DNA of 54,774 nucleotides. Origin: Treponemataceae bacterium. Lineage in GTDB: Bacteria > Spirochaetota > Spirochaetia > Treponematales > Treponemataceae. Location of the stretch: NCBI GenBank assembly GCA_024680915.1, contig JAILBN010000001.1, positions 1-54,774 of the forward strand, in the 5' to 3' direction. Shown in pieces: positions 19,356 through 33,085 of this stretch. The notes below the pieces were generated by a model. The model searched no databases. It saw nothing but the letters and a program-made list of their open reading frames with translations, and was not told the DNA's origin. How positions within the stretch are numbered: the first letter of the stretch is position 1; each line of letters starts with the position of its first letter. The position numbers were made by a program, and so were the translations under genes.

Positions 19356-20558
19356 TCACAAGCGGACTTCTGCTTTTATTCTTCCTTCATAAGGCTCTAT
19401 CTCAAGAAGCTGCCCATCTTTCAGTCCTTGGGAGCTTCTTATCACAGACCCGGTTTCTTTATCATAAACCATGGAGTATCCTCGGGCAAGAATCGCTTTC
19501 GGATCCGCCGCTTCCAGCTGCATTATGGAATTCTGTATGCGCTGCCTGTAGCCTGTGCATTTGTCTGTCATGCTTTTTAGTAAATCGTCCTTTGCGTCGT
19601 CAAGGCGGGTTAGAAGCGGTTGCTCTATTGTGCGGAACCTTAGTTCCAAAGACTCCGCTGAGAAAGAGGACAGCAGGAGTCTGGCTTTTTCTGTGCGGGC
19701 TGTCATGTTGTCCAAGAGGTTCTTTTTTTGACGGTCTATAGTCTCCAAAACATCGCTGAGCAGGGGGGTGCAAAGCTCTGCCCCGGCGGAAGGAGTGGGA
19801 GCCCTTCTGTCTGCGGCATAGTCGCTCAAAGCCCAGTCTATTTCGTGTCCTACAGCCGATACTACCGGAATTTCCGATGCGGCGACCGCGCGGACAACTT
19901 GCTCGTCAGAAAATGGAAGCAGGTCTTCTATGGAGCCTCCTCCCCGGCCTACAATAAGAACGTCTGCCATGTGGAACTTGTTCGCTGTTTGTATGCAGCG
20001 TACGATCTGGGGAGCGGCTTCTGCGCCTTGTACAGCACAGGGAAAGATGATAATGCTTATTGCAGGGTTACGACGCTTCATTATCTGCATTATATCCCGG
20101 AGGGCGGCGCCTGTGGGACTGGTGACCACACCGACGGTCCTGGGGAAAAAGGGCAGGGCTCTTTTGTTCTCCTCATCAAAAAGCCCTTCCATGGCAAGCC
20201 TTCTTTTTCTTTCCTCCAACATGGCAAGAATGTCTCCTGTACCGGCTTCTTCCATGGTGTCTACTATAATCTGATAGTTGCCTCGCTGGGGATATACAGA
20301 AAGCTTACCCTTTATCCTTACGGTCATCCCATCCTTTGGAATGAAGGTAAGATTACTTTTATATTTGAAAAGGACCGCTTGTATCACTGCCTTGTCGTCT
20401 TTTAGAGAGAAATAAATGTGGCCTGAGCTGGAGGGTCTGTAATTGGAAATTTCCCCTTCTATAGCCACCGGTGGAAATGTGTTTTCCAGAAGCTGCTTTA
20501 TTTGTTCCGTGAACTCGCTGACGGAAAGAAAATTGTTTTTCGTCATATCTATGGTCAT
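19356..20558 (-). CDS. xseA: Exodeoxyribonuclease VII large subunit
   Basis: 400 residues, in the normal size range. The N-terminal OB-fold has IEGEISNYRPSSSGHIYFSLKD; the catalytic core has VGVVTSPTGAALRDI, VLIVGRGGGSIEDLLPF and VSAVGHEIDWALSDYAADRRAPTPSAGAE broken up along residues 130-270. The C-terminal helices carry the repeat RGYSMVYDKETGSVIRS. This is the catalytic subunit, cutting single-stranded DNA into short oligonucleotides. ATG at 20558 is used; an ATG at 20546 is possible because neither has a clear ribosome site. A good promoter lies just upstream. Confidence 0.96.
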   Translation of the reverse strand: MTIDMTKNNFLSVSEFTEQIKQLLENTFPPVAIEGEISNYRPSSSGHIYFSLKDDKAVIQAVLFKYKSNLTFIPKDGMTVRIKGKLSVYPQRGNYQIIVDTMEEAGTGDILAMLEERKRRLAMEGLFDEENKRALPFFPRTVGVVTSPTGAALRDIMQIMKRRNPAISIIIFPCAVQGAEAAPQIVRCIQTANKFHMADVLIVGRGGGSIEDLLPFSDEQVVRAVAASEIPVVSAVGHEIDWALSDYAADRRAPTPSAGAELCTPLLSDVLETIDRQKKNLLDNMTARTEKARLLLSSFSAESLELRFRTIEQPLLTRLDDAKDDLLKSMTDKCTGYRQRIQNSIMQLEAADPKAILARGYSMVYDKETGSVIRSSQGLKDGQLLEIEPYEGRIKAEVRL

Positions 20559-22422: not shown

Positions 22423-23967
22423 ATGAAAACTTTTGTGTCTGTTTATATACCGTGTTTTGATCAAAGATATTTCAACAAGGTCTATTCTTGGATTTCCTGT
22501 CTTCCTGATGTTGAAAAGGTTTCTTTTTTTGTGGAGAAAAATTGTGAGAATGAGTTTTCTGCTTTCCTAGAATCCTGTAAAGCTTCTGATGTTTGTGTCT
22601 CCTGTAAAGATAAGTGGTCTCTTCTTGATATCCTTTCTGCCCTTTCGTCTTTGCCCCAGGGATACGATAATGTAGTATTTGCCTGGGGAGATTGTCCTTT
22701 CTATGATTCTGAGCTTACGTTGAATCTCTACGATCAGCATGTGAAATACTCTGCAGAATACAGCTATGCTGATGGTTGGCCCTATGGACTCGTTCCGGAG
22801 ATACTTGCTTCCGGAACGGTAAGGATTCTATCCAAGCTGGCGTATGAAAAGAAAGATATTTCCTGTGCGAAGCTGAAGAAAGAATCTCTTTTTGATCTTA
22901 TAAAAACCGATATAAATTCATTTGAGATAGAAACTCTTATATCTCCTGTGGATTATAGGATGTATAAGCTTGAATTCACTTCATCCACGAAAAGAGGAGC
23001 TTTGCTCTGCGACCGTCTTTCAGCTGTTACGGGAAAAAGTGCCCGCGAGCTTTGTGATGAGGCTGTCAAGTCATCATCTGTTCTCCATACTCTCCCTTAT
23101 TTCTATTCTATCCAGATTGCAGAAAAATGCAGCGGTAACTGCATATATTGTCCTTATCCTGAGGAATACCATAAAAAATACGGAAAGTATCCCGATGAAG
23201 CAGGTGCTTCATCCTTCATGACCATGGAACGTTTCTCCGAGCTTATCGATGGAATAAAAGCTTTCTCCGATGATGCGGTGGTCGCCCTTTCCCTTTGGGG
23301 TGAACCTATGTACCATCCCCATATCGTTGATTTGATAAAAAAAGTCCTGGAATATCCTTCCCTTTCTGTTCTTGTGGAGACTACCGGAGTCAATATTGAT
23401 GACAGCTTCTGCAATGCAGTAAAGAAAGTGGTTGAGGAAGCCCCTGAGCGAAGTTGTGGATATCCGCCGGTTATGTGGATCGTCAGTCTTGACGCAGTGA
23501 CGCAGAAAACCTATGAGACTCTGCATCCTGGTTCAGAGATGAGTCTTGAGAAAGCTTCTGCTTCAGCAGAACTCCTGCGTAAATATTTCCCGGACTCAAC
23601 TTATGTGCAGATGATAAGGCTGGAGCAGAATGAAAATGAGCTGGAAGCCTTCTTTAGAAGTCATGACAACCGGATAATTCAGAAGTACGATTATTTTTGC
23701 GGCAAGCTTCCGCAGTTCAAGCCTGCTGACCTCAGCCCTGTCTGCCGTAATGAATGTTGGCATCTTCGTCGTGATATGCAGATTCTTTCAGATGGATCTG
23801 TACCCTTATGCAAGGAATATATGTTTGATACTTGTGTGGGAAATGTTTTTTACGAAAGCTTTGAGACTGTCTGGAACAAGGGCATTCCCCTCCTCGAATC
23901 CCATATAGACAAAGAGTATCCTGATTTGTGTAGGAAATGTGATGAATTCTATACCTGTAACTTTTAA
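22423..23967 (+). CDS. Spiro-SPASM radical SAM protein with N-terminal nucleotidyltransferase-like domain
   Basis: 514 residues from ATG 22423 (GTG at 22417 is a near alternative). The N-terminal 190 residues look like a degenerate NTP-transferase fold (FVSVYIPCFDQRYF, NVVFAWGDCPFYDSELT). The radical SAM core begins with CSGNCIYC at residues 236-243, the CxxxCxxC that binds the iron-sulfur cluster, and includes LSLWGEPMYHP. The C-terminal SPASM region has cysteines in CRNECWHLRR, VPLCKEYMFDTC and CRKCDEFYTC for extra clusters. I recognise this as the spirochaete family called spiro-SPASM. It opens the operon and overlaps the next gene by 26 bases. Substrate is unknown; glycan or peptide modification fits the neighbours. 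Confidence 0.85.
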   Translation: MKTFVSVYIPCFDQRYFNKVYSWISCLPDVEKVSFFVEKNCENEFSAFLESCKASDVCVSCKDKWSLLDILSALSSLPQGYDNVVFAWGDCPFYDSELTLNLYDQHVKYSAEYSYADGWPYGLVPEILASGTVRILSKLAYEKKDISCAKLKKESLFDLIKTDINSFEIETLISPVDYRMYKLEFTSSTKRGALLCDRLSAVTGKSARELCDEAVKSSSVLHTLPYFYSIQIAEKCSGNCIYCPYPEEYHKKYGKYPDEAGASSFMTMERFSELIDGIKAFSDDAVVALSLWGEPMYHPHIVDLIKKVLEYPSLSVLVETTGVNIDDSFCNAVKKVVEEAPERSCGYPPVMWIVSLDAVTQKTYETLHPGSEMSLEKASASAELLRKYFPDSTYVQMIRLEQNENELEAFFRSHDNRIIQKYDYFCGKLPQFKPADLSPVCRNECWHLRRDMQILSDGSVPLCKEYMFDTCVGNVFYESFETVWNKGIPLLESHIDKEYPDLCRKCDEFYTCNF

Positions 23968-24901
23968 TGAACACCAATTCAAACGTACTGTTCTGGGAGG
24001 TACAGTCCGGTCGGAGGAAAAACTCCCTCTTTCCGTTATTCTGCTTAACAGAAATGGGTCTACCTTCAGGACCAGCAATTTAGAGAATCTTGATCATTTT
24101 GGTTTCAGAAAAATTGTCTGTATCGAGAATACCGCGGTGAATTATAATCTGGAGGATATATCCAAACGATATCCCCACGTCAAGTTCATAGTTCCTTATG
24201 AGGAGCTTTCTCCTGGGGATATGATCAACCTGGGAATGACTGAGGTTCCCGATGGTGAGGTGCTTGTTATTTGGGACACAGTCTCCATTTCATCAAAGCT
24301 GCTGACAAAAAATGTGGTTGCCCGGCTGGCAGAGGAGGAGACCTTCTGTCGTGTTCCACTGATCGCCGGAACGCGTCTGGACCTTCTTCCTATGCATATG
24401 GTTCCCAAGGTTGTCAAGGGTTCTCTTTCTGTAGACGCACAACTCTCTGCTCCCGATGGCTGTCCTACCTTCTATCCCTTTGATTACATAGGCATATATA
24501 ACCGTCAGAAATTCATCCTTTCTGGAGGCTTTGACTATACAATAAAATCTCCTTTCTGGCAGAACCTGGATTTGGCCATGAGAATCTGGCTTTGGGGAGA
24601 AGAGATCCGGATAGTTCCTCAGATACGTGTCCGTTACGAGACAGATGTTCCTGTCGAGGATTGTACTCCGGATTCCTCACAGCTGCGATTCTTCTTGAAG
24701 AATATCGCACCAAAATTTTCCCGTGATCACTCTTATATACCCAAAGTAAAGTTTTTGTCCTATTTTTTCCGTTCGGGCAATAGTTTCGCAGATTCTCTCG
24801 CAGAGTTCAAGGAAGCCAGGCGATGGGTCGAAAAAAATAAGTTCAGGTTCAGGATGGATGCATCTTCTCTTATAGATAATTGGGAGAGGGGGGCTGAATG
24901 A
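23942..24901 (+). CDS. Divergent GT2-like glycosyltransferase family protein
   Basis: 319 residues; ATG at 23942 behind AGGAA (GTG directly before it is also possible). The N-terminal half reads as a GT-A fold (LPLSVILLNRNGS, IVCIENTAV, LVIWDTVSIS), where the usual metal-binding DxD is replaced by WDT. The later segment FILSGGFDYTIKSPF and NLDLAMRIWLWG correspond to the acceptor-side GG and ED/Lxxr blocks of family 2 enzymes, again diverged. It may be inactive or use another sugar-transfer chemistry. Overlaps the spiro-SPASM gene by 26 bases and the following fusion gene by an ATGA overlap, which couples the three. Confidence 0.65.
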   Translation: MNSIPVTFNEHQFKRTVLGGTVRSEEKLPLSVILLNRNGSTFRTSNLENLDHFGFRKIVCIENTAVNYNLEDISKRYPHVKFIVPYEELSPGDMINLGMTEVPDGEVLVIWDTVSISSKLLTKNVVARLAEEETFCRVPLIAGTRLDLLPMHMVPKVVKGSLSVDAQLSAPDGCPTFYPFDYIGIYNRQKFILSGGFDYTIKSPFWQNLDLAMRIWLWGEEIRIVPQIRVRYETDVPVEDCTPDSSQLRFFLKNIAPKFSRDHSYIPKVKFLSYFFRSGNSFADSLAEFKEARRWVEKNKFRFRMDASSLIDNWERGAE

Positions 24902-27312
24902 CTGTTGTCGTCGTGCAGTGCCGTCTCGGGTCCTCACGGCTACCTGGAAAGGGGCTTCTCGATCTTTTGGGAAAACCTGTGATAGCTAGAGTCCTTGATG
25001 TTATGAAACGCGTTGAGGCAGATTCTTACTATCTTGCCACTGATTTTGACTCTTTTCCTCAGCTTTCTCCTGTAGCGGCAGAATATGGTTGGAAATGCTT
25101 CGCCGGCTCTCCTGATGATGTGCTTAGCCGTTTTTGTCATATTGCGGAAGAAAGCGGAGCGGATATAATTGTCAGGGCCACCGGAGACAATCCTTTTCTT
25201 TTCAGTGATGCTGCCTCTGCTTCTGTTAGTAGGTACAAAGAGCTTTCCAGGACAGAAGAGGTGGATTATTTCACTTATTCTGGTCTTCCCCATGGCAGCG
25301 GAGTGGAAATCCTAAATGGAAGAAGACTGCTCCTTGCGGCTCAAAATACAAGCTCCCCTTATGATCATGAGCATGTGGGACCGGCTTTTTATAATCACAG
25401 CGAAAAATTCAAGTGTATTTTTGAGAAAGCTCCTGATAAATGGAATTTTCCGGAAAAACGGACTACCATAGATACTCCGGTGGATTTCAAAAGGGCTGAG
25501 AGAGTGATGTGCCTTCTGAAAAAAGAGGGTAGGGAAAACAGCTACACTTCTGTTGATATACTGGATGTGCTTGAAAAGGATTTTATTAAAAGGCCTGTGC
25601 TTTTTGTCCCCTCCGTTGAAGCTGGACACGGAACCGGACACTTGAGACGCTGTCTTGACCTGGCTAAGCAGTTGTGCGCGGATATATTTATTCCTGAGGA
25701 AGCTTCTCTCCCATCGTTTTCTTCTATTATTACCCAGTCAGGGCTTTCCCCCTATCAAATCATTAGAAAGCTTCCTAGCCTTTCAGAAAGCGATGTAATA
25801 ACTCCATACAGCCTTATCGTCGCGGATTATTTTCAGCTGCCTCCTTCCCTGGCGGAGAAGCTGTGGGCTCTGGCCCCTGTAGTGGCTCTTGATGAGGGAG
25901 CTCCCAATACTGATTACTGCGATTATCTTCTTGATATAATTCCCTCATCTGTTTTGGAGCGTAAGGCCAACCTCAAAGACGAAAGCTTTATCCCCTTGCC
26001 TGAGAATAGAAAAAAAAGCCATCCTGCAGCTTTGCGTTCGGCTCTTGTCTGTATCGGAGGGGAGGATCCGGCAGGCTTCACTTCCATGTGTTCCCAGGCC
26101 TGCCGTTCTTGCGGACTTGATGTGAGGGAAGTGACTGCGGAGAATCCTGTCATCGGACTCCGGGAGAAACTGGCGGATTTTGACCTTGTCGTAACACATT
26201 ATGGATTCACCGCTTTCGAGGCTTGCTCTGCAGGCTGTGCTGTAATCCTGGTGGAGACCTCTCCTCTTCATCGCACTCTTTCAGAAAGTGAAGGCTTTGT
26301 CTGTATTCCGGCTGCTGCCTTGAAGGATCTTTCTCTTTTGACAAATGTTTTTTCTCAGCTGATTTCAAAAAAAGAGATATTGTTTAGGAATGATGATGCT
26401 GAAGCCGGTGCCGGGCAGGAGAGCCTTTCCGATTTTATAAGACAGCTTTCAGCTGGCTCCAGGTTGCCTTGTCCTATCTGTGGAGGAAGCTCAGTTCCCG
26501 ATGATGTCATTAACAGATCTAAGCTTAAGACCTACAGAATCTGCCGGAATTGTTCCACCATGTATCTTTCTTGGATTTTCGGGAAAGAAGAAAAATATGC
26601 GGAGAGTTATTTTTTTGATGAATATAAGAATCAGTACGGGAAAACTTATCTGGAGGATTTTGAAAACATAAAAGCTCAGGGGAAAAGACGTATATCCCTT
26701 ATAAACAAGCTTTCTTCCAAGCCTTCTGGACATAGACGTATCCTTGATGTGGGATGTGCTTTCGGCCCCTTCCTGTCTGCTGCATATGAAGCCGGCTGGG
26801 AAGCTTTCGGCCTTGATGTATCAGATGCGGCTGTAAGCTATGTCAATGAGAAGCTGGGCTTCAAGGCTGAGAAAGCTCCCTTTCCTGACTGCAACCTGAA
26901 AACAATTCCCTCTACTTATGATGCCCTCTCTATGTGGTTTGTGATCGAGCACTTCAAGGATTTGGATTCTGTTCTTAAGAAAGCTGCGGCAATGATCTGT
27001 GAGGGGGGTGTTTTTGCCTTTTCAACACCTTCTGCTTCCGGGGTTTCTGCTCTTTTCTCCCGGGAATCATTTTTTTTCAAGAGTCCTAAGGATCATTTCA
27101 CCCTTCTTGAGATGAAGAAATGCAAGAAAATATTAAAAAAATATGGCTTTACCAAGTTTAGATGCGTTTCAACAGGACATCATCCGGAACGCTTCCCTTG
27201 CCATCCGAAAAAAGATTCCTTAAGCTGGAAGTCAATTTCTTTAATAAGCCGGCTTTTCAAGCTGGGCGATACATTTGAGTTATATTGTGTTAAGGATACG
27301 TATAAAAAATGA
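24898..27312 (+). CDS. Three-domain fusion: SpsF-type cytidylyltransferase, PseG-like domain, zinc-ribbon methyltransferase
   Basis: 804 residues. Residues 1-225 are an SpsF/KdsB-type cytidylyltransferase (VVVVQCRLGSSRLPGKGL, ATGDNPF, TIDTPVDF), which normally activates an acidic sugar as a CMP-sugar. Residues about 230-505 resemble PseG, the UDP-sugar hydrolase of pseudaminic acid synthesis, with GHGTGHLRRC and HYGFTAFEACSAG. Residues about 525-560 form a zinc ribbon (CPICGG...CRNC), followed by a class I SAM methyltransferase (LDVGCAFGPF near 617, ALSMWFVIEHF). The chain therefore joins sugar release, activation and methylation. It overlaps both neighbours by four bases (ATGA). No separate NeuB-like synthase is present in the window. 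Confidence 0.85.
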   Translation: MTVVVVQCRLGSSRLPGKGLLDLLGKPVIARVLDVMKRVEADSYYLATDFDSFPQLSPVAAEYGWKCFAGSPDDVLSRFCHIAEESGADIIVRATGDNPFLFSDAASASVSRYKELSRTEEVDYFTYSGLPHGSGVEILNGRRLLLAAQNTSSPYDHEHVGPAFYNHSEKFKCIFEKAPDKWNFPEKRTTIDTPVDFKRAERVMCLLKKEGRENSYTSVDILDVLEKDFIKRPVLFVPSVEAGHGTGHLRRCLDLAKQLCADIFIPEEASLPSFSSIITQSGLSPYQIIRKLPSLSESDVITPYSLIVADYFQLPPSLAEKLWALAPVVALDEGAPNTDYCDYLLDIIPSSVLERKANLKDESFIPLPENRKKSHPAALRSALVCIGGEDPAGFTSMCSQACRSCGLDVREVTAENPVIGLREKLADFDLVVTHYGFTAFEACSAGCAVILVETSPLHRTLSESEGFVCIPAAALKDLSLLTNVFSQLISKKEILFRNDDAEAGAGQESLSDFIRQLSAGSRLPCPICGGSSVPDDVINRSKLKTYRICRNCSTMYLSWIFGKEEKYAESYFFDEYKNQYGKTYLEDFENIKAQGKRRISLINKLSSKPSGHRRILDVGCAFGPFLSAAYEAGWEAFGLDVSDAAVSYVNEKLGFKAEKAPFPDCNLKTIPSTYDALSMWFVIEHFKDLDSVLKKAAAMICEGGVFAFSTPSASGVSALFSRESFFFKSPKDHFTLLEMKKCKKILKKYGFTKFRCVSTGHHPERFPCHPKKDSLSWKSISLISRLFKLGDTFELYCVKDTYKK

Positions 27313-28919
27313 AAAATGTGCTTATACTGGGGGCGGGTCTTATGCAGAAACCCGCAATAGAGACTGCTTCTAAACTGGGATATAAAGTCGCCGTCGCGGA
27401 TGGGAATCCCAAGGCAGTCTGTTCTTCTCTTGCTGATATTTTTGAGCCTATTGACCTTAAGGACAGGGACTCTCTTCTTTCTTTTGCCCGTAATCTGGAT
27501 AAGAACGGAGGTTTGGAGGGTGTTTTTACAGCTGGTACAGATTTTTCTGCTTCTGTCGCTTTTGTCGCCCAGCATTTAAGCCTTCCTGGTCACAGTTATG
27601 AAGCTGCTCTGAACGCCAGTGATAAAATCCGTATGAGGACATGTTTCTCAGAAGCAGGTGTTCCTTCCCCTTGTTTTTATTGCGTCGATTATAGGAATGA
27701 GGGAAAAGATCTGGATGAGATAAGGGCTCTGCCGGAGCTTTCTTCCTTTCCGCTTGTCGTCAAGCCTGTAGACAATATGGGGGGGAGGGGCTGCCGTATG
27801 GTCCGCTCTCCAGAAGAACTGGCCTCCGCAGTTAATATCGCAGTCTCTTTTTCAAGGACGAAAAGGGCTGTGGTTGAGCAGTATATGCCCGGCAGGGAGT
27901 TTTCTATAGATTCCCTTGTCTTTGACGGTGAAGTCACTATAACTGGTTTTGCTGACAGACATATCTTCTATCCACCCTACTTTATAGAGATGGGGCATAC
28001 AATGCCTACTGTCATCAATGAAAAGGACTGGTCTGATCTTGCAGAAACTTTCAGAGATGGAATAAAAGCTCTGGGGCTTACCCACGGAGCTGCCAAGGCT
28101 GATATAAAGCTCACTCCGGAGGGTCCGATGATAGGAGAGATAGCGGCCAGGCTTTCTGGGGGCTATATGTCCGGTTGGACATTCCCTTATGCATCCGGTA
28201 TCAACCTGACTGAGCAGGCTCTTCTTCTTGCCCTTGGGAAAAAGCCGGAACTTCTGCTTGAAAAAAGAAAAGCGACATCTGTAAAGGGAATTTGGAATCT
28301 GGATACAGAAAAGACCTCTGCGGAAAGAGCTTGGGTCTCTATACCTGGAGTGATAGAAAAGACAGAGGGAGTGTCTGAGCTTTTAGCGGAGAAGAAAAAA
28401 AACTCTACTCCTCTGAAAGATTTTCTTCCACGCTGCAATTCAGGTGACAAGGTTTCTTTCCCTGTGAACAATGTGGGAAAGTGCGGCAATATAATCACAT
28501 GCAGCGAGAACTACGATGAAGCTGTATCAATCGCGGAGGAAGCTGTTTCCTCAATTGTCCCTGTGCTTAGAAGCGATAACAAGGAGACTGAAGCTTTTTT
28601 GTCAGCTCCTCTTGATACGGAATTTCCTCCATCTGCTTTTATCCTTCCGAAGGAATGTGTGGAATCTGTATTTTCAGAATGTGCCGGAAAGAATATTTCT
28701 TCACAAGAGAAGATAGAAATGCCTGCTGCTTTAATTCCTTACGCTGAAGCTGTTAAGGATTGGAACAAAAGGAATATAAGAAAAAGCCTGGAGCTTTTCG
28801 AGTCCTTGAAAACATCTTTCGTTGATATGCCTCTCTGCTCATTCTGGAAGGCTTTGTTCAGGGGCGGAGTTCAAGGCGCCCTTTATAAAGCGGCTGAATA
28901 TGAGGTAGAAGAAAAATGA
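27309..28919 (+). CDS. ATP-grasp ligase family protein with C-terminal extension
   Basis: 536 residues. The N-terminal Rossmann-like pre-ATP-grasp part has LILGAGLMQKPAIETASKLG and VAVADGNPKAV; the ATP-grasp core has FPLVVKPVDNMGGRGCRMV (ATP-binding glycine loop), VVEQYMPGREFSID and a late metal site in GPMIGEIAARLSGG. This is the PurK/biotin-carboxylase/CarB-like group, which forms acylphosphate intermediates and then amide or carboxyl bonds. The last 120 residues are an extra helical domain not typical of the family. It is linked by ATGA to both the fusion gene and the amidase gene. In this setting it may add an amino acid or acyl group to a sugar; that is inference. Confidence 0.82.
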   Translation: MKNVLILGAGLMQKPAIETASKLGYKVAVADGNPKAVCSSLADIFEPIDLKDRDSLLSFARNLDKNGGLEGVFTAGTDFSASVAFVAQHLSLPGHSYEAALNASDKIRMRTCFSEAGVPSPCFYCVDYRNEGKDLDEIRALPELSSFPLVVKPVDNMGGRGCRMVRSPEELASAVNIAVSFSRTKRAVVEQYMPGREFSIDSLVFDGEVTITGFADRHIFYPPYFIEMGHTMPTVINEKDWSDLAETFRDGIKALGLTHGAAKADIKLTPEGPMIGEIAARLSGGYMSGWTFPYASGINLTEQALLLALGKKPELLLEKRKATSVKGIWNLDTEKTSAERAWVSIPGVIEKTEGVSELLAEKKKNSTPLKDFLPRCNSGDKVSFPVNNVGKCGNIITCSENYDEAVSIAEEAVSSIVPVLRSDNKETEAFLSAPLDTEFPPSAFILPKECVESVFSECAGKNISSQEKIEMPAALIPYAEAVKDWNKRNIRKSLELFESLKTSFVDMPLCSFWKALFRGGVQGALYKAAEYEVEEK

Positions 28920-29983
28920 AAAAATATCATTTAAACTTGAGTCGTAGCGTATGCGGCAAGTTTTTTTGCATTTTCTTAGGGCTTGTCCTTGTTCTTCCAG
29001 TATTTTCCGAAGAAATCTCCAAAAAAATAAATCTCACAGAATACACATCGGCTGAAGAAGCTGAGTTTTTTTGGGATAGCATGACGGGGGGAGGTATGTT
29101 CATAAAGGATGGGCATACTGTCAGCTTCCGTGTTAATGATTCCGTTATCCTGCTCGACTATAACAAGCTTGCTGTGGTGGAAGCTCCTTTTATGAAGGAT
29201 GGAAACGTGTATGTGGGAGAAGATTTTAAGGATTGCGTAGAATCCCTCCTCCGTACCCAAGCCCCAGACCCCTTTTTCAGTATTGGAACTATCCTTATAG
29301 ATCCTGGCCACGGAGGAAAAGATCCTGGAGCTATAGATACTTTGACTGTCGATGGAAAAAAGATAAATGTTCAGGAAAAGGATATAGTGCTGAATGTGGG
29401 AAAGAAGCTGTATACGCTTTTGAAAAAGAAGTATCCTGATAAAAACATAGTTATGACCCGTGATACTGATGTTTTCCTTTCCTTGGAGGAAAGAGTCGAG
29501 ATAGCTAACAACATCCCCTTGGATGAGAGAGAGGCTGTGCTTTATGTATCCATACATGTGAACGCAGCCTTTGATAAGACAGCCGGAGGCTTTGAGGTCT
29601 GGTACCTCAGTCCTGGATATAGGCGTACCGTGATAAGTGGCAGCGAGGCAGAGGATAAAGAGCTTCTGCCTATACTCAACTCTATGATGGAAGAAGAATA
29701 CACCACAGAAAGTATCCTTATGGCAAAATATATTTTAGATGGTCTTGACAGCAAGATAGGTTCCGTCATGACTAACAGGGGTATAAAAGAAGAGGAATGG
29801 TTTGTCGTAAGGAATGCCAAGATGCCTAGTGTTCTTGTGGAGCTGGGTTTTCTGACAAATCCAAGGGAAGCTGCTATCCTTACTGATGAAAGCTACTTGA
29901 AAAAGATTGCGGACGGAATATATAATGGTATTGTATCCTTTATCGTTCATTTTGAATGTTCCAGGGGATTCACCGGGTTATAA
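28916..29983 (+). CDS. N-acetylmuramoyl-L-alanine amidase (Amidase_3), exported
   Basis: 355 residues with a signal peptide at 1-32 (FFCIFLGLVLVLPVFS|E). An N-terminal domain of about 90 residues resembles a copper-amine-oxidase-like or AMIN-type targeting domain. The amidase core has the zinc ligands in LIDPGHGGKDPG, NVQEKDIVLN and SIHVNAAF, and the catalytic Glu in VLVELGFLTN. It cleaves the bond between MurNAc and L-alanine in peptidoglycan. Coupled by ATGA to the ATP-grasp gene and followed at once by a GerMN gene and flaA. In Treponema pallidum an amidase gene also lies close to flaA. Confidence 0.93.
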   Translation: MKKYHLNLSRSVCGKFFCIFLGLVLVLPVFSEEISKKINLTEYTSAEEAEFFWDSMTGGGMFIKDGHTVSFRVNDSVILLDYNKLAVVEAPFMKDGNVYVGEDFKDCVESLLRTQAPDPFFSIGTILIDPGHGGKDPGAIDTLTVDGKKINVQEKDIVLNVGKKLYTLLKKKYPDKNIVMTRDTDVFLSLEERVEIANNIPLDEREAVLYVSIHVNAAFDKTAGGFEVWYLSPGYRRTVISGSEAEDKELLPILNSMMEEEYTTESILMAKYILDGLDSKIGSVMTNRGIKEEEWFVVRNAKMPSVLVELGFLTNPREAAILTDESYLKKIADGIYNGIVSFIVHFECSRGFTGL

Positions 29984-29990
29984 TTGTTTT

Positions 29991-30458
29991 ATGAAGAAGA
30001 AAGCTGTTTTTTTAACTACTTTACTTTTCCTTTCTGTTGGGATATCACTTTTCTGTTACATACAGAAAAGTGTGAATGCGGGGTCTGTGCGTAGGCTTTT
30101 CATCTTTGAGTCTTACGATAACTCCGAGAGATCGATGGAAGTACGTTATCTTCATGAGAAAAATGGGGAGGCTGCTGTGAGGGAGTTTATAGAGGAGCTC
30201 CTTCTGGGGCCTATGTCCGATAGATATATTCGTCTTTTTCCATATGGGACAAGACTTCTGTCATGTTTTATAAGGGATAATGTTTTATATATTGATCTCT
30301 CTGAGGAGGCTGCCCTTCGTACGGAAGGCACTTCAGATACTGAGAGGGCATGTACATTACTAAAAGAAAATGTCAGACAGAATTTTGCTGATCTGACAGA
30401 TTATAAGATTTTTATGATGGGCAATGAGGTATATGCAAGCGGAACTGTTTTTGAATGA
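29991..30458 (+). CDS. GerMN-domain exported protein
   Basis: 155 residues from ATG 29991; an upstream in-frame extension crosses the amidase stop and is not needed. A signal or anchor segment is at residues 5-24 (FLTTLLFLSVGISLFC). Residues 60-155 match a GerMN domain: AVREFIEELLLGPM, RLFPYGTRLLSCFIRDNVLYIDLSEEAALR and ERACTLLKENVRQNF. The domain is found in sporulation and envelope proteins and binds unknown ligands. It lies seven bases after the amidase stop. The Cys at the end of the hydrophobic segment could be a lipobox, but the context LFC is weak. Confidence 0.82.
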   Translation: MKKKAVFLTTLLFLSVGISLFCYIQKSVNAGSVRRLFIFESYDNSERSMEVRYLHEKNGEAAVREFIEELLLGPMSDRYIRLFPYGTRLLSCFIRDNVLYIDLSEEAALRTEGTSDTERACTLLKENVRQNFADLTDYKIFMMGNEVYASGTVFE

Positions 30459-30559: not shown

Positions 30560-31711
30560 ATGAAGAGAACATTTATTGTATTTGCAATCGTTTTCCTGTT
30601 TTTAGGAACTTTTGCAATTTGTGAGGAGTCTGTTCTTATCGACTTCACTCTCTTGCAGCAGGATATGGTCGAGCCGGTTCAGGAAGTCGAAGGTGTCCGT
30701 ACAAACGATCTTTCTGAAAAACAGAACCGAAGAACTATAATGGATTATCAGACAGCGGCTGGAGCTACGTTCACAGATGGACAGAAGGCACTTATGCGTA
30801 CGTCTTTGGCTCTTAGTAACTGGCAGATTGAGCTTAATTCTTCCGCAAGAAATGTAACAAGTCTTTCTCTTTCGAGAGTTGTTCCTGCTCATGTCCGTAC
30901 AGAAAAACCTCAGAAAAATGCCTATGGTGAAGTTGAGACTGTTCCTGTAACCGTTCCTTTCGCTGATGAGGAAGTTATGGGTGTCCGTATCGTTTTCCCA
31001 ACCTCAAATGTAAACGCAAATGCTAAGGTTGTTCCTCCATTTGAAATTCCTGCTTATGAGAAAATGGCTTACATCGATGATGAAGGTAACATCGCGATGA
31101 ATGAAGAGGGGACGAGAGTGGATGCGAATGGAGAGCCCTTTGATACTTCAACAACACGTTTCGAAGAGGGCTACGGTGTCGTAAAAAATGTTGGTACTCT
31201 CAAGGCAATATCTGTTACTACAATGGGTATGAATTATCCTTATGCACTTTATGTATGGCTGAAAGATACTGATAATGTTGAGCGTCGCTATTATATGGGT
31301 ACTTTGGGATTTGACGGATGGAAAGAACTCCGTTGGGATAATCCGACATATATCACAGATGTACGTACCCGTGAGATTCGTATTTATCCGATTTATCCAC
31401 GCGGACTTCCTTATGTTAAGTTCATGGGCTTCCAGGTCGTTCGTGATGCTGCCCAGGCTGGCGGTGACTTTATCGGTTATTTCAAAGATGTAAAGGTTAT
31501 TTATGACAAGGCTGTTCTTAATACAGAACGTGACATAGCTGATGAAGATTTGTGGAATATCGTGACAGAGCGTGAAGCTGCAAAACAGAATTACGAGATG
31601 ACTAATTTCGGACAGAAACAGGTCGAGCGCTTCCTTGAGTACACAAAATATGCTCAGGAAACAACTTTTACATCAAGTCTTGAAGAAGCAGAATCATCTG
31701 ATGAGCAGTAA
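30560..31711 (+). CDS. flaA: Flagellar filament outer layer (sheath) protein FlaA
   Basis: 383 residues, close to the treponemal FlaA1 length. Signal peptide 1-20 (FIVFAIVFLFLGTFA|IC). The mature protein shows the FlaA pattern: an early DFTLLQQDM and later WQIELNSSARN, DEEVMGVRIVFPTSN, GTLKAISVTTMGMNYPY, FDGWKELRWDNPTYI and GDFIGYFKDVKVIYDK. FlaA coats the FlaB core of periplasmic flagella. The gene has its own very strong promoter and a good terminator, so it can be expressed independently of the operon upstream. The C-terminus is acidic. Confidence 0.97.
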   Translation: MKRTFIVFAIVFLFLGTFAICEESVLIDFTLLQQDMVEPVQEVEGVRTNDLSEKQNRRTIMDYQTAAGATFTDGQKALMRTSLALSNWQIELNSSARNVTSLSLSRVVPAHVRTEKPQKNAYGEVETVPVTVPFADEEVMGVRIVFPTSNVNANAKVVPPFEIPAYEKMAYIDDEGNIAMNEEGTRVDANGEPFDTSTTRFEEGYGVVKNVGTLKAISVTTMGMNYPYALYVWLKDTDNVERRYYMGTLGFDGWKELRWDNPTYITDVRTREIRIYPIYPRGLPYVKFMGFQVVRDAAQAGGDFIGYFKDVKVIYDKAVLNTERDIADEDLWNIVTEREAAKQNYEMTNFGQKQVERFLEYTKYAQETTFTSSLEEAESSDEQ

Positions 31712-31819: not shown

Positions 31820-33085
31820 ATGGATAAATGTAATAGTATATTTATTCCTGATAAGGAAAAGCTCGCAGAGGCATATGAGAAAAGAAAACCAGTGCTTTCT
31901 GCGGTTTTGTTCGGGATAGAGAATCAGTTAAAAAGCATTCTTAAACTTGCTTCTAAACCTACATATAAATCAAGAGTGAAATCATTTCCCAGTTATTATA
32001 AAAAAATATTACGTGTAAAGCCTGAATCGATGGGTAAACAAGATTTACCTGTAATAACAGACCTTATTGGAATTCGTGTTATTTGTGCTTTTCTTGAGGA
32101 TATAGCTGAGGTTGAAAAACAAATTGTTGCTAATTTCAATATTGTGGAGATAGAAAGGAAGGGGGCTTCCCGGACATTCTCGGAATTCGGCTATGAATCC
32201 GTCCATGTGCTCATCAAAATACCTGAAAAACTTACGGCGGCCAGTGAGGTAGCTGCAAAGATTCCTGATGGTTTGGTATGTGAGATTCAGATAAGGACAA
32301 TATTACAGGACGCATGGGCTGAAGTTGAGCATGAGCTTGTTTATAAATCAGAGTTTTCACCCTTTGATCTTCCTTTAAGGCGAAAGCTTGCATCTATGAA
32401 TGCTAGTCTTACGCTGGCAGATATTATTTTTCAGGAAATACGCGATTACCAGAATAAGCTGAATAAGGAGATGGATTTTAGAAGGTCCTTGTTTTATGAA
32501 CAAGCTGATACCTTGTCAAGGAAAGAAATCTCTGAAAGCATGAAGAATGAGAATGTTCCTGTGTTTGAGAACAGAAATTCATCTCTTCCTTATGTGCATG
32601 GTACTATTGATGATATGATCCTGGAAGCTATTCATGCCCATAATACAGGTGAGCTTGAAAAAGCAGTGGGTATATATACCATGATCATCACTGCCCAGCC
32701 GCAGCCTAATAATATCGTGTTATCCGTAATCTTAAAGCATAGGGGAATGGCAAGGTTCTCTCAGAATAAATATAAAGAATCTCTTGATGATTTTTTGCAA
32801 AGTGTGGAAAAAGATCCGAAAAACTTCAGGTCTCTTTATTACATAGGTATAGTATATAGCATTCAAGGGGATGATGATAAGGCTATTGATTATTTTTCCC
32901 GTTCTCTTGAAATCAATGAATATCAATCTCATGTATATTATCGAAGGGCTTTGTCAAAATATAGAAAATGTGATTTCAAAGCTGCCTCTGATGATTTGTC
33001 AAAGGCTCAGAACCTGGGGCTTGACAATGAGGATTGTAAAAAACTCGGGGAAATATTATCCGCAAAGAAAGAATTGTCTATGTAA
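31820..33085 (+). CDS. RelA/SpoT-type (p)ppGpp synthetase domain fused to TPRs
   Basis: 421 residues. Residues about 40-230 are a small alarmone synthetase domain: DLIGIRVICAFLEDI, FGYESVHVLIKIP and CEIQIRTILQDAWAEVEHEL, which hold the pyrophosphate-transfer residues and the EHxxxYK box. No HD hydrolase, TGS or ACT domains. Residues about 270-421 hold three or four TPRs (YKESLDDFLQSVEKDPKNFR, ALSKYRKCDFKAASDDLSKA). A protein-interaction tail on a stand-alone synthetase suggests regulated activity. No ribosome site; the promoter suggests a leaderless mRNA. Stand-alone unit between flaA terminator and tRNA-Glu. Confidence 0.88.
   Translation: MDKCNSIFIPDKEKLAEAYEKRKPVLSAVLFGIENQLKSILKLASKPTYKSRVKSFPSYYKKILRVKPESMGKQDLPVITDLIGIRVICAFLEDIAEVEKQIVANFNIVEIERKGASRTFSEFGYESVHVLIKIPEKLTAASEVAAKIPDGLVCEIQIRTILQDAWAEVEHELVYKSEFSPFDLPLRRKLASMNASLTLADIIFQEIRDYQNKLNKEMDFRRSLFYEQADTLSRKEISESMKNENVPVFENRNSSLPYVHGTIDDMILEAIHAHNTGELEKAVGIYTMIITAQPQPNNIVLSVILKHRGMARFSQNKYKESLDDFLQSVEKDPKNFRSLYYIGIVYSIQGDDDKAIDYFSRSLEINEYQSHVYYRRALSKYRKCDFKAASDDLSKAQNLGLDNEDCKKLGEILSAKKELSM

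Follow-up and report, generated by a model that had tools for sequence, protein, structure and literature searches.

Flagellins of Campylobacter, Helicobacter and Clostridium are modified through the cytidine monophosphate (CMP)-pseudaminic acid pathway (PseB-C-H-G-I-F plus Maf), and in the sps genes of Bacillus subtilis an SpsF-type cytidylyltransferase is followed by a PseG/SpsG-like protein. The homology of the B. subtilis sps genes to the Pse genes is stated in PMC13317340. In spirochaetes, the flagellin modification of Treponema denticola has a mass of 450.2 Da (Kurniyati et al. 2017, cited in PMC9481697) and is needed both to assemble filaments and to swim (PMC9481697), and Leptospira flagella display glycan densities at the core-sheath interface (PMC13144727). 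Our literature search found no paper that names the pathway building the spirochaete flagellar glycan, none that uses the term 'spiro-SPASM' and none that joins radical S-adenosylmethionine (SAM) enzymes, flagellin glycosylation and spirochaetes. Here, we describe a candidate locus in a 54,774-nt stretch of DNA from a Treponemataceae bacterium (GCA_024680915.1, contig JAILBN010000001.1; hereafter the window), which is contig C52 of a 134-contig, 3.15-Mb draft genome. The window carries a cassette of four genes that encode a radical SAM protein of the spiroSPASM family, a glycosyltransferase (GT)-like protein, a triple fusion protein and an ATP-grasp ligase. From a computational analysis of its architecture, synteny, co-occurrence, single-copy genes and motif loss, we conclude with a probability of about 0.8 that this cassette makes, tailors and activates an unusual nine-carbon sugar, a nonulosonic acid, with which FlaB, the flagellin core of the spirochaete periplasmic flagella, is decorated.

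The coordinates of the open reading frames (ORFs; cf. Table 1) confirmed the layout given by a first-pass annotation made from the DNA alone, namely four genes that overlap by 4 or 26 bases and lead into genes for an amidase, a GerMN-domain protein and FlaA. The spiroSPASM and GT genes share 26 nt, and overlaps of 4 nt join the GT gene to the fusion gene (24898-27312, + strand), the latter to the ATP-grasp gene and this one to the amidase gene; the most probable start codon of the GerMN gene is the ATG at 29991, 7 nt past the amidase gene. The order spiroSPASM-GT-fusion-ATP-grasp-amidase-GerMN-flaA-RelA/TPR was found in most of the loci of 40 relatives, and the 26-nt overlap in 32 of 43 loci scored, including that of G025, a treponeme with a one-contig genome of 1,139,633 bp. 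Since order and overlap recur so widely, the cassette is not a product of chance, and the genes are linked in relatives, whereas their being unlinked would have spoken against the first-pass reading. The same order occurs in four genomes from other families of the class (L080, L081, L082 and L090; no amidase match was found in L082), and the gene order from spiroSPASM to flaA is kept across the class Spirochaetia. The f13 genomes (L075, L087) carry a version of the cassette without the GT and ATP-grasp genes, and in G025 neither the amidase gene nor flaA adjoins the cassette. We found no support for the amidase and GerMN proteins as pathway members, as neither adjoins the cassette in G025, and the amidase is probably a conserved neighbour outside the pathway. 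The position of the cassette beside flaA is likewise only positional, because in T. pallidum the flagellins are glycosylated and the sheath proteins are not, according to Wyss 1998 as cited in PMC13144727.

The presence of the cassette was found to track flagellin, NeuB and Maf, which agrees with the proposed role as a flagellar nonulosonate cassette and answers a check suggested in the first-pass annotation, co-occurrence across spirochaetes. The spiroSPASM gene was present in 50 of 59 relatives. Among the nine without it, the genomes G016, G022 and G031 are only 59-74% complete, and G043, G046, G049, G051 and G057 have no flagellin either, while the same-family sisters G037, G040 and G054 have both. 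The flagellated G047 was rejected as an exception, as its fusion gene is cut off by the end of the contig and the ATP-grasp, amidase, GerMN and flaA genes follow in the usual order. Across the phylum (159 genomes), spiroSPASM matches were obtained in 153 genomes (139 above the cut-off), NeuB in 153 and flagellin in 158. In genus g41, four genomes of 1.0-1.5 Mb, which we infer to be Borrelia-like, contain flagellin and lack both NeuB and spiroSPASM, and G200 has neither flagellin nor spiroSPASM. Furthermore, the Maf-type family PF01973 gave four or five matches in every one of the 14 flagellated genomes tested that bear the cassette, and nothing above the cut-off was detected for it in the five flagellin-less genomes or in the Borrelia-like G130. 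The ATP-grasp protein behaved in the same way: orthologues scoring above 560 bits were present in G025, G020, G088, G178, G039, G047, G052 and G056, whereas no match in the flagellin-less genomes was better than E 1e-7 and in G130 there was none. Strong NeuB genes are present in two of the flagellin-less genomes without the cassette, G046 and G049; therefore, the cassette tracks flagellin and not nonulosonates in general.

Table 1. Features of the cassette and its downstream neighbours in the window.
Feature	Position	Strand	Remark
spiroSPASM gene (TIGR04321), 514 aa: degenerate cytidylyltransferase-like domain, radical-SAM barrel and four-Cys twitch/SPASM domain	22423..23967	+	
spiroSPASM N-terminal nucleotidyltransferase-like domain, residues 1-215	22423..23067	+	6oew match
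Radical-SAM motif CSGNCIYC, residues 236-243	23128..23151	+	intact here
spiroSPASM four-cysteine auxiliary-cluster region (C445, C463, C503, C506)	23755..23940	+	twitch-like spacing CX17CX39CX2C
GT-A fold protein gene, nearest GT27	23942..24901	+	ATG start; GTG 3 bases upstream
Fusion N domain, SpsF-type cytidylyltransferase (CTP_transf_3)	24898..25572	+	proposed CMP-nonulosonate synthetase
Fusion middle domain, PseG-like, GxGHxxR	25573..26487	+	proposed UDP-sugar hydrolase
Fusion C domain, CXXC zinc-ribbon-like segment and class I SAM methyltransferase	26488..27312	+	Methyltransf_23
ATP-grasp ligase with LAL_C2 domain	27309..28919	+	proposed N-acyl (amide) ligase
Amidase_3 N-acetylmuramoyl-L-alanine amidase	28916..29983	+	conserved neighbour
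GerMN-domain protein (Germane)	29991..30458	+	conserved neighbour
flaA, periplasmic flagellar sheath protein (FlaA)	30560..31711	+	conserved neighbour

The fusion protein had been described as an assembly of sugar-activating, PseG-like and methyltransferase domains, and both of its ends are supported by Pfam. Its N domain matched CTP_transf_3 (PF02348) with 92.4 bits (cut-off 22.6) and contains the RxxSxRLPxK-type motif as RLGSSRLPGK. As the window's own genome and G025 have one PF02348 match each, the fusion N domain itself, this domain is by elimination the best candidate for the CMP-nonulosonate synthetase. The middle domain gave a weak match to the PseG model TIGR03590 (20.8 bits, below the equivalog cut-off of 153.6), and no relative was found when the PDB was searched with its sequence, but it has kept GxGHxxR: G245, G247, H248 and R251 (fusion numbering) are invariant in 15 sequences, and the same histidine, which we take to be the catalytic one of PseG, is invariant in alignment A5. 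The C domain matched Methyltransf_23 with 65.6 bits. In deeper lineages, an SpsF-type gene comes after spiroSPASM, to which L084 adds a separate PseG-like gene and, a few kb away, a separate gene for the same kind of methyltransferase; L072 encodes a single 525-aa protein that opens with the SpsF domain, and the SpsF part frequently stands alone as a gene in other families of this order. Given these neighbouring separate genes, the triple fusion is most readily explained by a late merger of genes that were neighbours beforehand.

With this candidate synthetase, the genome holds the components expected of a flagellin nonulosonate glycosylation system, which also include NeuB, an aminotransferase, a dehydratase and Maf. 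The NeuB-like synthase, which the earlier annotation had proposed to look for elsewhere in the genome, was found there as one full copy of 379 aa, and G025 also has a single NeuB. The gene (L071:382-1521, contig C75) lies outside sugar clusters, beside alpha-2-macroglobulin-like and PbpC-like genes (named by eye), with a flagellin gene at a distance of about 30 kb. Its neighbourhood was considered as a second sugar cluster and rejected, as NeuB stands alone between unrelated genes both here and in G025. Four Maf transferases are encoded away from the cassette. A tandem Maf-type pair beside a protein of about 308 aa was seen in this genome (L123:5735-9755) and in G025 (L121:5937-9783). PMC3265458 gives TP0284/285, TP0286/287 and TP0288/289 as merged pairs, and three long G025 ORFs at 300 kb would suit them. 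The PseB-like and PseC-like genes, which matched TIGR03589 and TIGR03588, respectively, under the equivalog cut-offs, lie side by side in G025 (L122), and a single small gene separates them in the window's genome (L124). In the latter (L124:3704-8981, contig C83), a long dehydratase, the PseC-like aminotransferase, a sugar-phosphate transferase and a Gcn5-related N-acetyltransferase (GNAT) gene lie together and resemble a pgl-type set.

The ATP-grasp ligase of the cassette, as it had been named, was corroborated by scores above the cut-offs for PF13535 (ATP-grasp_4; 56.1 bits versus 27) and LAL_C2 (32.2 versus 29.4). Loss of this gene from G020 and G025 was rejected, since a whole-genome search found orthologues elsewhere in both. 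Its nearest relatives with a known ligase function are the L-amino acid ligases BL00235, BacD and DdaF (3vot, E 5.5e-33; BacD 3wo1, 9.8e-17), with which it shares LAL_C2. Unlike the described members of that group, the orthologues in deep classes are fused to a C-terminal flavin mononucleotide (FMN)-dependent dehydrogenase of the 2-hydroxy-acid oxidase family (L125:7170-9341, L126:7413-9659). In G025, a free-standing relative of this dehydrogenase, which shares 33% identity with the domain fused in L126, is located about 0.9 kb after the cassette, past one HAD-type gene. The fusion and the G025 neighbour together suggest a hydroxy-acid as the substrate of the ligase. The T. denticola glycan is reportedly a mono-acetylated pseudaminic-type acid that carries a 2-methoxy-4,5,6-trihydroxyhexanoyl group at N7. 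An amide ligase and a methyltransferase would be what its methoxy N-acyl group needs, and the sum of nonulosonate, acetyl and 2-methoxy-trihydroxyhexanoyl, computed on this reported structure, is 450.185, in agreement with the published mass. The ligase had been assigned a so far undescribed step, and this part of the earlier proposal should be revised, as a plausible described product exists in this unusual N-acyl group.

The assignment of the first protein as a radical SAM-SPASM enzyme held in part. It matched TIGR04321 over residues 13-514 with 518.4 bits (cut-off 250) and the radical SAM family PF04055 with 44.4 bits (cut-off 29.5). The seven cysteines of SPASM-type proteins, which serve two auxiliary clusters, are not all there, as the family keeps only C445, C463, C503 and C506, so the auxiliary region is twitch-like, with one cluster at most; in addition, the protein has an N-terminal domain of another kind. 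In an AlphaFold model (predicted local distance difference test score, pLDDT, 92.4), residues 1-215 adopt a cytidylyltransferase fold (6oew VIA, Z 15.6, 3.0 A over 215 residues; IspD, Z 16.0). This domain also matched the 6oew cytidylyltransferase by sequence (E 3.3e-4), and hhalign paired it with the fusion N domain at E 7e-4, though with a probability of just 26%. Residues 219-514 are modelled as a radical-SAM barrel plus twitch. The best domain-wide fold for them was BtrN, the radical SAM and twitch enzyme 2-deoxy-scyllo-inosamine dehydrogenase (Z 20.8, root-mean-square deviation, rmsd, 2.5 A, 233 of 246 residues), which is also the top PDB sequence match of spiroSPASM and has the four-cysteine auxiliary pattern in common with it; SuiB (Z 20.9), SkfB (Z 20.0), BlsE and DesII were other near folds. 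In contrast to BtrN, spiroSPASM possesses the added cytidylyltransferase-like domain, and many of its orthologues are devoid of the catalytic motif. Both the C-terminus of spiroSPASM, DE(F/Y)Y, and the N-terminus of the GT-like protein, MN(S/T)IP, are conserved, and a single 26-base stretch (23942-23967) codes for the two.

The iron-binding catalytic motif CX3CX2C, which radical chemistry would require and which is present in the window protein as CSGNCIYC, was lost in 27 of 71 spiroSPASM orthologues in genomes that retain the gene; L052 (CX3CX4C) was scored as keeping it, and the count becomes 28 if it is scored as lost. Motif-less proteins were checked one by one, and CX3CX2C was found nowhere in their sequences. 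They are of full length, many still occupy the operon position, and one is present in G025. Across the 71 orthologues, C445, C463 and C503 are invariant (100%) and C506 is found in at least 93%, and the SAM-binding GE pair is often retained in the motif-less proteins (G293 in 86%, E294 in 75%). A tree made without the motif columns needed 12 changes, of which eight were forced by well-supported branches and seven fell inside the class; as the trees were quick and some branches long, the exact number of changes is uncertain, while several losses are certain. With the motif gone from over a third of the orthologues, radical catalysis cannot be the conserved function of spiroSPASM, and it was rejected as the key reaction of the cassette, contrary to the earlier view that the radical SAM enzyme performs an undescribed step of it. 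We tentatively suggest a non-radical conserved role, in which the degenerate cytidylyltransferase-like and four-cysteine domains may hold or pass on the CMP-nonulosonate; the radical-SAM site might then be an optional tailoring module that was repeatedly switched off, so that the flagellin sugars of different lineages would differ in one feature.

The GT-like protein matched no Pfam or NCBIfam model. It had been taken for a changed GT2 protein, whereas its GT-A fold proved nearest to the peptide O-glycosyltransferases of GT27. Its model (pLDDT 90.8) is closest to the polypeptide GalNAc-transferases (Z 20.6, rmsd 3.4 A, 262 of 320 residues), with the next group at Z 15.9. This common fold covers almost the whole protein, at about 14% identity; unlike GT27, the protein has no intact DXD/DXH motif and no lectin domain. 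In a by-eye alignment (no structural superposition), the motif position reads W/R-[DNS]-[DST], mostly with W, and thus canonical metal binding is not kept. The best 80 genome matches of the protein were all from spirochaetes, and a search of the plasmid collection found no relative. The gene belongs to nearly all cassettes of the class; next to the spiroSPASM genes of the deep classes, none was detected.

Taken together, we propose a route in which each enzyme reaction is predicted. A PseB-like dehydratase and a PseC-like aminotransferase, both encoded elsewhere, would make a uridine diphosphate (UDP)-4-amino-sugar, to whose amine the ATP-grasp ligase would couple a hydroxy-acid in place of the acetyltransferase PseH. 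The methyltransferase domain of the fusion would O-methylate the acylated product, the PseG-like domain would remove UDP, and NeuB would condense the sugar with phosphoenolpyruvate. The SpsF-type domain would then make the CMP-sugar, which spiroSPASM may bind or tailor (as such or as the free sugar) through its cytidylyltransferase-like domain, with the radical step as an optional tailoring lost by several lineages, and Maf transferases would finally attach the sugar to FlaB.

Several observations weigh against this proposal. The loss of flagellin within the order may have been one event in one family, and independent co-losses of cassette and flagellin are perhaps about three, so the association is strong in pattern and modest in number. 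The radical-SAM motif is absent in G020 and G025, and in neither does the ATP-grasp gene adjoin the cassette. The middle domain of the fusion is far under the PseG cut-off and without a PDB relative by sequence. The dehydratase is of a long membrane type (about 500-627 aa) and not a short PseB, which makes the sugar configuration unsure.

Other explanations were weighed against the same data. The cassette might build an envelope or surface polysaccharide, such as an outer-membrane glycolipid, a capsule or a peptidoglycan-linked glycan, and its siting by the amidase, GerMN and flaA genes would then be positional. Those first two are indeed conserved neighbours, and nonulosonates also occur on lipopolysaccharides of other bacteria (PMC3438082), but flagellin-less genomes of the same order lack the cassette even where NeuB is strong, and amidase and flaA are both away from it in G025. 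We therefore consider an envelope product quite improbable, and the earlier 'flagella or envelope' narrows to flagella. The transfer of the sugar to flagellin serine or threonine by the GT-like protein instead of Maf is rather unlikely: its similarity to polypeptide GalNAc-transferases stands well above the next fold group and nearly all cassettes of the class have it, but its metal site is degenerate, it is missing beside deep-class spiroSPASM genes, and about four copies are available of the Maf-type proteins that usually transfer nonulosonates to flagellin.

Two further explanations concern spiroSPASM itself. It could be a peptide-modifying maturase, of the type acting on ribosomally synthesized and post-translationally modified peptides (RiPPs), that works directly on flagellin and is served by the other genes. 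Peptides are frequent substrates of SPASM proteins, SuiB and SkfB rank among the best folds, and the GT fold resembles peptide O-glycosyltransferases; however, BtrN, BlsE and DesII, which are carbohydrate enzymes, match the fold as well or nearly as well, the N-terminal domain is cytidylyltransferase-like, the gene outlives its radical-SAM motif, and the operon showed no gene for a precursor peptide, all of which makes a maturase barely credible. Motif loss as a sign of gene decay, with spiroSPASM on its way out, fits the recurrence of the losses but is just as hard to accept, given that the motif-less orthologues are full length with their twitch cysteines kept, that many remain at the operon position, and that one persists in a 1.14-Mb genome shorn of most dispensable genes. 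The flagellin nonulosonate pathway is thus the reading we prefer.

Beyond the cassette, a gene that joins a RelA/SpoT (p)ppGpp synthetase domain to tetratricopeptide (TPR) repeats (31820-33085) directly follows flaA, and xseA (19356-20558) lies divergent and upstream; both hold these positions in many relatives.

A conserved candidate operon is now assigned to the spirochaete flagellin glycan, retained even in the 1.14-Mb treponeme genome G025, and each of its domains receives a testable pathway step. The spiroSPASM family in turn offers a natural series of radical-SAM proteins in which the catalytic motif was repeatedly lost and the auxiliary cysteines were retained. Compared with the described systems, the closest is the CMP-pseudaminic acid flagellin pathway, for which PseB/PseC-like, PseG-like and NeuB/PseI-like proteins, a CMP-sugar synthetase and Maf are all in the genome. 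It differs in that (i) the other spirochaete genes are scattered apart from the cassette, (ii) synthetase, hydrolase and methyltransferase are in one protein, and (iii) the cassette has an ATP-grasp ligase and no GNAT acetyltransferase, with spiroSPASM and GT-like proteins as extra members. SpsF and SpsG of B. subtilis share the pairing of an SpsF-type cytidylyltransferase with a PseG/SpsG-like protein, whereas the spirochaete domains are fused with a methyltransferase and serve, in our proposal, flagellin instead of the spore coat. Finally, the 450.2-Da flagellin glycan of T. denticola, with the structure reported for it, would resemble the expected product in its mass and in an N-acyl group with a methoxy carbon, as a ligase and a methyltransferase might generate.

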